From Bdellovibrio bacteriovorus W (GTDB lineage: Bacteria; Bdellovibrionota; Bdellovibrionia; Bdellovibrionales; Bdellovibrionaceae), in the NCBI GenBank assembly GCA_000525675.1, contig CP002190.1, positions 1,922,001 through 1,986,000 on the forward strand: a DNA stretch of 64,000 nucleotides, read 5' to 3'. Of this stretch, positions 2,998-30,767 are shown one piece after another; within the stretch, counting starts at the first letter, position 1, and every line of letters starts with the position of its first letter. The position numbers and the translations under genes are program-made. A model generated the notes under the pieces. The model saw only the letters and a program-made list of their open reading frames with translations, was not told where the DNA came from and did no database searches.

Positions 2998-3177
2998 GGA
3001 TTTATTGTCAGTGAAGGATGGTTTCTGGTCAATACAAGGTCTTTGAGTTTCTCTCCGACTTTGGACTAAAATCTGCCACAAGCCTCACCTTTACAGTATA
3101 GACTTCATGTAAAACTTGAGATCTTCGTCATTTGAGTTCTCAGGATGAGAATGCTTTTGAAAGGTAAAAAAGACTTC

Positions 3178-4275
3178 ATGTTCTACGGAAAGAAAGCCAT
3201 CCAGTACATCTTCTTTGAAATGCTTCCAAGTTTTATCCTGGGTCTTTTCGTTTTTATCTCCATCATCCTCATGTTCCAAGTTTTGCGTTTAACCGAGTTT
3301 GCACTTGTTCATGGAGTGGCTTTAAAAACCATCGCTGAAATTATCGCCTATGTTGTCATCTCTCTTTTGCCGATTCTTTTTCCGATGGCCCTGCTCTTTG
3401 CGGTCCTCTTAACCTACGGTCGCCTCAGCCAAGATTCCGAAATCGTGGCGATGAAAGCTTCGGGGCTTCCGATGTCGACATTGCTTGCGCCGGCTCTGCT
3501 TTTAGCGATCATCGTCGGAGTCTTCTCGGCTCAGATGTCCTTTAACATCGCCCCTTGGGGGAATCGCCAGTTTGAAGTTTTGTTTTCAAGATTAGCCGAC
3601 ACGAAAGCCAGCGCAGTTATTAAAGAAAGCACTTTCTCTGAAGGCTTTTTCGATATGGTGGTTTACGCAAATCGCGTTGACTCGAATAAAGGAAAGCTCA
3701 CTGATGTCTTTATCTATGACGAAAAGTCTGGAGATCTTCCTTTAACTATCGTCGCTAAAGAGGGTGAAATTATGCCTGATCCGGATCTTCCAGGGCATGA
3801 GGTGAAACTACGCCTTCAAGATGGAGAGATTCATCGCCAAGGCGCTACGCACACAAAAATTAGCTTCGACACCTATGACGTGCGCTTTTCTTCTCCGCTG
3901 AATATTATTGAAAAAGCCAAAACTCCACCTTCACTCACTTTGACGGAAGTACAAACTCGCCTCCAAGAACCGAACCTAGATTCCGACACTCGCCGCACTT
4001 TACTGACCGAGTTCCATAAGCGTTTGGCTATCACTGTCCTTTGCATTGTCTTTGCTATGATCGGAGTGGGCTTAGGAACCAATACCAATAAAAGAGCCGC
4101 GAAAGCCGGAGGCATGATCCTCTGTATCGGCATCATTATTCTTTATTGGGTTCTATACGTCGCCGCAGAAGGCATGGCGCGAAGTGGATCTGCACCGGCC
4201 GCCCTTGCGATCTGGGCACCGAATATTATTTTCGGAGGCCTTGCCATTGAGTCTCTACGAAGAAATTGGAATTAG
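3178..4275 (+). CDS. lptF: LptF/LptG-family lipopolysaccharide export permease
   Basis: The YjgP/YjgQ family supplies the membrane part of the LptBFGC machine that lifts LPS from the inner membrane to the periplasmic bridge. The sequence has two N-terminal membrane segments, a conserved loop with GRLSQDSEIVAMKASG, a third membrane helix, a periplasmic beta domain in the middle and three C-terminal helices. The start is set at ATG 3178 (MFYGKKAIQYIFFEM). In-frame ATGs at 3145 and 3151 are possible alternatives. Only one family member lies here, so its partner and LptB must be elsewhere. LptF rather than LptG is my best guess. Confidence 0.85.
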   Translation: MFYGKKAIQYIFFEMLPSFILGLFVFISIILMFQVLRLTEFALVHGVALKTIAEIIAYVVISLLPILFPMALLFAVLLTYGRLSQDSEIVAMKASGLPMSTLLAPALLLAIIVGVFSAQMSFNIAPWGNRQFEVLFSRLADTKASAVIKESTFSEGFFDMVVYANRVDSNKGKLTDVFIYDEKSGDLPLTIVAKEGEIMPDPDLPGHEVKLRLQDGEIHRQGATHTKISFDTYDVRFSSPLNIIEKAKTPPSLTLTEVQTRLQEPNLDSDTRRTLLTEFHKRLAITVLCIVFAMIGVGLGTNTNKRAAKAGGMILCIGIIILYWVLYVAAEGMARSGSAPAALAIWAPNIIFGGLAIESLRRNWN

Positions 4276-4316: not shown

Positions 4317-4369
4317 AATCTCTCTGATCGATTTAGATTTTATAATTTAAAGTGAGATCTTTTTAGATG

Positions 4370-4434
4370 GGGAAAGAAAAATAAGAGCGATGTAGCGGCA
4401 TCCTTACCACTGCGGTCATCCTTGACCACATCGC
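4370..4434 (-). ncRNA. Compact three-way-junction RNA with two AGGA-loop hairpins
   Basis: Read on the minus strand, 4434 to 4387 folds almost completely. A 7-bp closing stem (GCGAUGU with ACAUCGC) encloses a 5-bp hairpin GGUCA-AGGA-UGACC, a two-base linker, and a 7-bp hairpin AGUGGUA-AGGA-UGCCGCU. Only the two AGGA loops and the linker stay unpaired. The second hairpin needs two G-U pairs that become C-A mismatches on the plus strand, so the minus strand is the functional one. A U-rich tail (UCUUAUUUUUCUUU) follows the closing stem, as at a terminator. It lies about 110 bases downstream of dprA on the same strand. GGA in hairpin loops is the binding signature of CsrA/RsmA, so a CsrA-binding RNA is one reading; this function is inferred. 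Confidence 0.5.
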
Positions 4435-4544
4435 CCCTCCCTAGATCAAATGTTAGGTTCAATTGCCAGAGTGAGCAAATGGATTTTTACACTTCATTTC
4501 TTTTTTTTGAGAGAGTGTCCTCAGTTGCTTTATAACCACTATAC

Positions 4545-5480
4545 CTAGTGGGAGCCTCGACTTTTGTCGTCTAGAAATACTAAAGGAAAGTCGAGGTCCC
4601 TTCGCTCTGCACGGAGGAAGATTTTCAAGTCTTCAGCATCGCGAACCAGCTGAGCCCCCTCACTGAGCAAATCCAAACTCCCTAAAAAGTGCGGATCTAA
4701 CGGATGCCCAGGCACAACCCAAACGGGCCTCCCTAACTGAACAGCATGCCGAGCTGTAATCAAGGTCCCACTTCTTCTACGAGCTTCCACCAAAAGAGTC
4801 CCATCCCCTAAGGCAGCAATCAGTCGGTTGCGATGATGAAACAGATGTTTATGCATTCTTTGATTCAGCGAGTATTCACTCACCAGGCAACCTCCAGAAC
4901 TCACCACACTCTCGACCCAGGACTCAAGAGTGCTTGGATAGATCTGTCCCAACCCCGAGGGAAGCACAATGATAGTCGGAAGAAAATTCCGCAAAGCCAA
5001 AGCGTGGGCTTTTTGATCAACTCCGCGAGCTCCCCCACTGACAATCACGGGACGCTCGGATGAACAAAGACTCAGTAACTCTTTTTCCATCCACTGAGTA
5101 GACTCTGAAGAGGGCTCACGACTCCCCACTACGGCCAAGGATGGCAGACGCCAACAAGGAGTTCCAATATATGACAAAACCCAGGGCGGGTCTTCCATAG
5201 CGTAACAATTTTCTGGATAGAGTTCATGACCATAAAAAGTCATGTGAATATTCCGCGCAAAAGCACTTTGAATTTCTTCAAAAGCAGTGCGATAGGAGTT
5301 CGTACTCATTTTTACAGCTAGAGAAATATCCGGAAACTCGTCAGCAAGACTTTGCAAAAAACAAGAAAGGGGCTCTTTGCTTTGCATAGAGTTTTTCAGA
5401 AGTTTAAGAACATCATCATTATATATTTTTATGGCCGGTAGATTTTTTACCACCATACAAAGAGCGATCAAATCAATCAT
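4545..5480 (-). CDS. dprA: DNA-processing protein DprA (natural transformation)
   Basis: DprA binds incoming single-stranded DNA during natural transformation and loads RecA. The 311-residue protein has a short helical N-terminus and a Rossmann-like core with VVGSREPS at 118-125, SGGARGVDQKAH at 148-159, then HRNRLIAALGD and EARRRSGTL further on. It lacks a C-terminal winged-helix extension, as some family members do. The gene follows the LysM gene on the same strand but is separated from it by a strong terminator, so it probably has its own promoter. The split comEC genes nearby support a competence or DNA-recycling role. Confidence 0.93.
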   Translation of the reverse strand: MIDLIALCMVVKNLPAIKIYNDDVLKLLKNSMQSKEPLSCFLQSLADEFPDISLAVKMSTNSYRTAFEEIQSAFARNIHMTFYGHELYPENCYAMEDPPWVLSYIGTPCWRLPSLAVVGSREPSSESTQWMEKELLSLCSSERPVIVSGGARGVDQKAHALALRNFLPTIIVLPSGLGQIYPSTLESWVESVVSSGGCLVSEYSLNQRMHKHLFHHRNRLIAALGDGTLLVEARRRSGTLITARHAVQLGRPVWVVPGHPLDPHFLGSLDLLSEGAQLVRDAEDLKIFLRAERRDLDFPLVFLDDKSRGSH

Positions 5481-30671: not shown

Positions 30672-30699
30672 AACCACTCCTTTTTTATTGGTTAAAAAA

Positions 30700-30740
30700 G
30701 CGTCGTCTTGTCTTCACCGGGTACGTCGCACATCGTCCGG
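30700..30740 (-). promoter_or_regulatory. Guanidine-III (ykkC-III) riboswitch
   Basis: The minus strand reads CCGGACGATGTGCGACG, then TACCCGGTGAAGACAAGACGACGC, nearly identical to the consensus of the guanidine-III class (CCGGACGAGGUGCGCCGUACCCGG followed by AGGACAAGACGGCGC). CCGG pairs with CCGG, and the GGCGC-type end forms the pseudoknot around guanidinium. It lies about 30 bases upstream of the start codon, followed by TTTTTT and the ribosome site. Ligand binding probably exposes the ribosome site or blocks termination and so turns on the exporter. Confidence 0.9.
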
Positions 30741-30767
30741 ACACTCAGAATTTGAGTGCTGATTTAT

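Follow-up and report, generated by a model that had tools for sequence, protein, structure and literature searches.

In RsmE structures the bound sites are ANGGAN hexaloops, and the SELEX consensus RUACARGGAUGU is presented in loops of mostly six bases (PMC7652899), while CsrA sites have been described as CANGGANG hexaloops (PMC4894983). One CsrA dimer bridges two sites lying 10-63 nt apart, with an optimum near 18 nt (PMC7652899, PMC4894983). Antagonism of CsrA by small RNAs has been described principally in Gammaproteobacteria (PMC13407953), CsrB/C were reported to be anti-correlated with FliW (PMC4894983), and a 2020 review treats sRNA mimicry and FliW as mutually exclusive ways of antagonising CsrA (PMC7366521). 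The flaA leader of Campylobacter jejuni is an mRNA-derived CsrA titrator that probably binds one CsrA dimer (PMC4894983). Here we describe a conserved structured RNA with two CsrA-type loops from Bdellovibrio bacteriovorus W, encoded in a stretch of 64 kb that was analysed as a whole and is referred to as the window.

Position and parts of the RNA locus

A sequence-only reading had proposed a compact minus-strand RNA with two AGGA-capped hairpins at 4370-4434 of the window. The locus proved to be real, whereas the gene is slightly larger, covering approximately 4375-4443 with a predicted promoter reaching up to approximately 4478. The minus strand from 4443 to 4375 reads UAGGGAGGGGCGAUGUGGUCAAGGAUGACCGCAGUGGUAAGGAUGCCGCUACAUCGCUCUUAUUUUUCU, and R1, a covariance model built from 39 distinct sequences, matches 4374-4443 with 89.7 bits on the minus strand compared to 11.7 bits on the plus strand, in agreement with the strand originally assigned. 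The GGGAGGGG stretch directly 5' of the fold and the U-rich tail that had been pointed out are both present in the sequence. The predicted RNA is composed as follows:

4375..4443, minus strand: predicted small RNA gene of about 65 nt, from covariance model R1 and conservation in relatives
about 4443-4441, minus strand: predicted RNA start, at AAGGGAGGGG
4428..4437, minus strand: 5' strand of the closing stem P1, GGGGCGAUGU, pairing with 4384-4393 (helix 1, paired in 97.9% of cells)
4414..4427, minus strand: hairpin 1, GGUC-AAGGAU-GACC, its outer pair being G-C, C-G or A-U among relatives
4418..4423, minus strand: loop 1, AAGGAU, an ANGGAN hexaloop with the CsrA-site consensus CANGGANG
4394..4411, minus strand: hairpin 2, with a covarying stem in which one pair (36-47) is seen as G-U, A-U, U-A, C-G and G-C
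4400..4405, minus strand: loop 2, AAGGAU, an ANGGAN hexaloop, with GGA at a distance of 18 nt from that in loop 1
4384..4393, minus strand: 3' strand of P1, ACAUCGCUCU; whether the variant is CTCT or TCTC, pairing with GGGG is kept by G-U and G-C pairs
4375..4383, minus strand: U-rich tract after P1, with P1 a predicted intrinsic terminator, from the sequence and a T-rich tail 3' of P1 in relatives
about 4375, minus strand: predicted RNA 3' end, inside the U-tract

The small RNA and its terminator are accordingly predicted to be a single object, P1 and the U-tract together forming the terminator.

No match at gathering score was obtained at the locus in Rfam 15, and over 4340-4470 at E up to 10 there were only three chance hits to unrelated families; CsrB, CsrC, RsmX/Y/Z and TwoAYGGAY, where present in Rfam 15, gave none over the same interval and threshold. 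Elsewhere in the window, a guanidine-III riboswitch (RF01763) was found at 30697-30762 on the minus strand (59.3 bits, gathering score 36). A small open reading frame starting from the AUG in GGGGCGAUG was considered and rejected, as single-base indels occur in L044, L046, L053 and L059 and in-frame stops in other families.

Conservation and covariation of the fold

The structure first described, a 7-bp closing stem around AGGA-capped hairpins of 5 and 7 bp, is both the minimum free energy and the centroid fold, but the closing stem reaches 10 bp in relatives, P1 growing through G-U and G-C pairing with GGGG. Both loops read AAGGAUG and hairpin 2 contains two U-G pairs, as had been noted, and the alternation of G-C and G-U between the outer P1 strands, GGGG and CTCT or TCTC, likewise fixes the strand. 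The 68-nt form folds at -28.2 kcal/mol (z = -3.6), and 0 of 200 shuffles were as stable.

Conservation and covariation of the stems had been set beforehand as a point on which the proposal could fail, and both were found. Under a fixed structure consisting of a 10-bp P1, a 4-bp hairpin 1, a 6-bp hairpin 2 and two hexaloops, 98.5% of cells pair, compared to 32-67% in slid controls. Two-sided changes occur at four pairs (17-30, 33-50, 35-48 and 36-47), the observed covariation score was matched by no shuffle, and RNAalifold, unaided, gives the same fold minus the outermost pair. Single ANGGAN hexaloop hairpins with a stem of at least 4 bp are at background level, 13 being present on both window strands where 10 are expected at random; for a pair of such hairpins within 45 nt, one was found in the 64-kb window and 0.075 are expected per Markov-random window. 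Together with the confirmed fold, this indicates that the original observation was correct and is unlikely to have arisen by chance.

The loops follow the CsrA recognition rule

Among the 39 distinct sequences, loop 1 with its closing pair reads C-A-N-G-G-A-N-G and loop 2 with its closing pair U-A-N-G-G-A-N-G, all named letters being invariant. The A and GGA columns have an entropy of 0, whereas both N columns show 0.8-1.6 bits. The N before GGA is C in 5/39 sequences in loop 1 and C or U in 13/39 in loop 2, where it covers all four bases, and the position following GGA holds U, C or A. Hence, the loop columns follow the CsrA/RsmE rule A-N-GGA-N exactly. The A-U pair supposed to close each AGGA tetraloop is not kept, A-C or A-A being found in relatives, and since this pair within the loops is not maintained, the natural unit is the ANGGAN hexaloop. 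Csr/Rsm antagonists are expected to carry at least two A(N)GGA sites in hairpin loops, and here both loops are ANGGAN in 39/39 distinct family sequences, the pattern being weaker in family f10. The GGA of loops 1 and 2 start 18 nt apart, close to the published optimum, and this spacing thus suits one CsrA dimer.

Distribution of the RNA and divergent homologues

By BLAST against 100 related genomes, nearly every member of the same family was found to carry the element, with 79-93% identity. The covariance-model search confirmed that the RNA is conserved across much of the order: R1 matches 95/141 genomes and R2, a broadened model, 100/141, nearly always as a single copy per genome. In the window's own family the RNA is matched in 62/66 sampled genomes; of the four without a match, three are 64-83% complete. 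Among 291 genomes sampled across the phylum, only two matches per model lie outside the order, and the RNA is essentially absent from the phylum outside the Bdellovibrio order. The weak out-of-order matches in G281, G282 and G186 were not counted as homologues, those inspected being without P1 or single hairpins. One of these loci, L136:1517-1592 on the plus strand (G282, from another family), carries three consecutive GGA-hexaloop hairpins and no P1 stem (GGUUC-AGGAAU-GAACC, CUUAAC-AUGGAU-GUUGAG and CUAAGAAAUC-AAGGAU-GAUUUCUUAG) and may represent a separate, independent CsrA sponge from beyond the order. Another, L137:783-826 on the minus strand (G281), consists of one terminator-like hairpin of 16 bp whose loop is AUGGAU, and may combine a CsrA site with a terminator.

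Within the order, the stems differ widely in families f4, f6 and f10. Nevertheless, GGA lies in at least one hairpin loop in 30/35 divergent sequences (6.7 expected) and in two loops in 14/35 (0.1 expected). Both counts are on the optimistic side, since the loops were part of the search model and common ancestry links the sequences. Loop 2 is mostly without GGA in f10, where several sequences keep GUGGAG or UUGGAG at the 5' end. The P1 sequence GGGCGAUG/CAUCG (window 4428-4437 and 4384-4393, minus strand) is nearly invariant across the four families and is conserved beyond what pairing or CsrA binding requires.

The copy in the HD100-like genome G006 lies at 2,374,938-2,375,007 on the minus strand, in a coordinate frame that was checked by the c-di-GMP-I riboswitch of G006, which falls within the published merRNA interval. 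The RNA is not identical to any of the known HD100 attack-phase sRNAs, whose coordinates differ, nor to the hit-locus sRNA (96,436-96,822), which is elsewhere in the genome. The published list of HD100 sRNAs specific to the attack phase, which is restricted to attack-phase-enriched RNAs of at least 98 nt, does not include it.

Predicted promoter and neighbouring genes

The region upstream of the RNA and the adjacent genes contain the following features:

4473..4478, minus strand: -35-like hexamer TTGCTC, part of a conserved pattern upstream of the RNA
4450..4455, minus strand: -10-like hexamer TAACAT, with a 17-nt spacer from TTGCTC
4482..4512 (bounds approximate), minus strand: A-rich, UP-element-like stretches upstream of the -35 hexamer
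4545..5480, minus strand: presumed dprA-like gene, an upstream ORF on the same strand, with a homologue in nearly all f1 loci with enough contig
3145..4275, plus strand: presumed lptF/lptG-like permease gene, a converging ORF, nearly all f1 loci having a homologue downstream and on the opposite strand

The names dprA and lptF/lptG are presumptive, being based on homology and not on a family scan. The pattern TTGnnn-N16-19-TAnnnT is present at the right distance upstream in 68/91 loci (2.6 expected), and in 59 loci the A columns at -65, -58 and -48 to -46 relative to GGAGGGGCGATG are about 95% or more conserved. A generic scan for a sigma-70 consensus and for terminators called neither at this locus, probably owing to weak hexamer matches and a branched terminator, and comparative evidence was used instead. 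No GacA box (TGTAAG-N6-CTTACA) was found upstream of the RNA with up to 3 mismatches; the sole overlap with this pattern, at 4391-4408, is inside the RNA and at background frequency.

In the window's family there is no same-strand gene directly downstream of the RNA. Outside this family, the RNA and its promoter motif are retained next to other genes. In f6 and f10 (L108, L118, L060 and L111) the RNA lies 40-240 nt upstream of a same-strand gene that we take to be a gpmA-like phosphoglycerate mutase gene, and in some f4 genomes (L105, L114) it lies upstream of a presumably rpsN-like gene.

CsrA, FliW and likely targets

Absence of csrA from the genome had been named in advance as incompatible with a CsrA-related role, and csrA is present. 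A single CsrA of 75 aa is encoded (csrA at G000:C1:389183), with intact RNA-binding residues including HREE at 43-46 with R44, and with N55; CsrA proteins regulated by FliW are characterised by N55 together with a C-terminal extension (PMC13407953). The gene sits downstream of a flagellin-like (flgL-like) gene and directly upstream of fliW. CsrA was found in 103/103 good genomes of the order and is nearly universal in the phylum, and 92/95 R1-positive genomes encode it, the other three being 54-84% complete. With csrA in every good genome of the order, its co-occurrence with the RNA is uninformative. FliW was found in 95/103 good genomes of the order, and among RNA-positive genomes a FliW match is missing from G089 (97% complete), G130 (91%) and G119 (85%). 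Since the CsrA-type RNA and the csrA-fliW locus are carried by nearly all the same genomes, RNA and FliW coexist. The proposal of a CsrA-binding RNA is thus supported by order-wide conservation, covarying stems, a csrA gene in the genome and A-N-GGA-N loops, the binding itself being a prediction from sequence.

The flagellin leaders of the same genome carry ANGGA at the Shine-Dalgarno site. In a first type of leader (L176, L184, L185 and L188, upstream of the start at 1489), an extra ANGGA is situated 25 nt upstream of the Shine-Dalgarno site (-39 and -14); this second ANGGA is in a hairpin in the genome analysed here and is kept in G005, G012 and the HD100-like G006. In a second type (L177, L209 and L210), four ANGGA are spaced approximately 17-20 nt apart, at about -69, -49, -32 and -12. 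The flagellin leaders, being conserved between species, are likely CsrA targets in these FliW-bearing bacteria, as judged from circumstantial sequence evidence.

Proposed function and alternative explanations

The computations establish that the RNA is conserved and structured and which strand encodes it; they also show CsrA-type loops at a matching spacing, a promoter-like site, a predicted terminator, and CsrA and FliW in the same genomes. We consider it probable that the locus is a stand-alone small RNA gene acting as a minimal CsrA antagonist, mainly by titration. The RNA would be transcribed at about 65 nt from its own promoter and end in its own terminator, each loop would fill one RNA pocket of the CsrA dimer so that one RNA serves one dimer, and the RNA would in this way take CsrA off mRNAs with ANGGA at their start sites, such as the flagellin leaders. 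Levels of flagellin and of further CsrA targets would then be set by its abundance as well as by FliW. We lean only slightly towards the wider claim that sRNAs of this kind, each sequestering one CsrA dimer, form a family in the Bdellovibrio order that acts jointly with FliW.

For a sponge, two sites are a small number if the RNA is not present in large amounts. The RNA may bind CsrA and yet have a main role other than titration, either because CsrA acts on the RNA, affecting its stability or refolding, or because the stem strands or the conserved G-rich 5' end of the RNA also pair with mRNAs. McaS and GadY do both, base-pairing and also antagonising CsrA (PMC7652899), and the P1 strands are conserved in sequence and not merely in pairing, as would suit such a role; these conserved strands, however, are buried in a stable 10-bp stem and not exposed. 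Taken together, we regard the two variants as unlikely. The very conserved P1 sequence and three-way junction, the lack of an Rfam match and the position upstream of gpmA in f6 and f10 could also fit a metabolite-sensing RNA, or a structured RNA binding another protein, that exposes GGA by chance. Against this, the predicted terminator is part of the RNA, no same-strand gene lies downstream in the window's family, and the free N positions specifically match CsrA recognition, so we find this explanation quite improbable.

The location between converging genes throughout the family, with P1 and a U-tract resembling a terminator, might instead suggest an intrinsic terminator or 3' element common to the dprA and lptF/G genes and no sRNA at all. 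Terminators, however, need neither invariant GGA loops nor a conserved promoter, while here a promoter motif is found immediately upstream in most loci and persists with the RNA in families with other neighbours, leaving very little room for this possibility. A mimic of ribosome-binding sites sequestering the anti-Shine-Dalgarno or the 30S subunit, as had also been put forward on account of AAGGAUG and GGGAGGGG resembling Shine-Dalgarno sequences, is scarcely credible, since the bases on both sides of GGA are free, C and U included before it, so that neither AGGA nor AUG is under selection, and GGGG is paired within P1.

Comparison with known CsrA antagonists

A conserved CsrA-type RNA and the csrA-fliW locus occur together in nearly every genome of a large part of the order. 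If the RNA does sequester CsrA in concert with FliW, an RNA and a protein antagonist of CsrA do not exclude each other, and sponge RNAs have also originated in bacteria other than Gammaproteobacteria. The RNA could then tune flagellin and other CsrA targets over the attack and growth cycle of these predators and, few regulatory RNAs being known in Bdellovibrio, would be a direct tool for studying the flagellated attack phase as opposed to the growth phase. With a length of about 65 nt and sites for one dimer, it would rank as a very small CsrA antagonist and lend itself, as a simple system, to studies of structure and kinetics. In the open-licence literature we found no CsrA-binding sRNA for Bdellovibrio or its phylum, although a report may have escaped detection.

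CsrB/CsrC and RsmX/Y/Z of Gammaproteobacteria are stand-alone RNAs with ANGGA hairpin loops and an intrinsic terminator, as is predicted for the Bdellovibrio RNA, and by analogy the latter is expected likewise to titrate CsrA/RsmA. According to Rfam it is not homologous to them, and it differs in having only two hairpin sites, contained in about 65 nt and joined in a single three-way junction, the closing stem of which doubles as the predicted terminator, in coexisting with FliW, and in lacking a GacA-type palindrome upstream. The TwoAYGGAY motif, said to have been described by Weinberg et al. in 2010, reportedly consists of two hairpins with AYGGAY terminal loops. It is listed for human gut, gamma-Proteobacteria and Clostridiales, whereas in the Bdellovibrio RNA N is any base and both hairpins are within a conserved closing stem. 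McaS and GadY of E. coli have few CsrA sites. They resemble the Bdellovibrio RNA as small RNAs antagonising CsrA, but are themselves base-pairing sRNAs (PMC7652899). The C. jejuni flaA leader has two adjacent ANGGA hexaloops approximately 20 nt apart in a FliW-bearing host (PMC4894983); the Bdellovibrio flagellin leaders resemble it, while it is itself a flagellin mRNA 5' UTR and the Bdellovibrio RNA is predicted to be a non-coding gene apart, ending in a terminator of its own. In conclusion, Csr/Rsm sponges are a known kind of RNA, of which the Bdellovibrio RNA is a separate family by the lack of an Rfam match, its architecture, its phylum and its coexistence with FliW.
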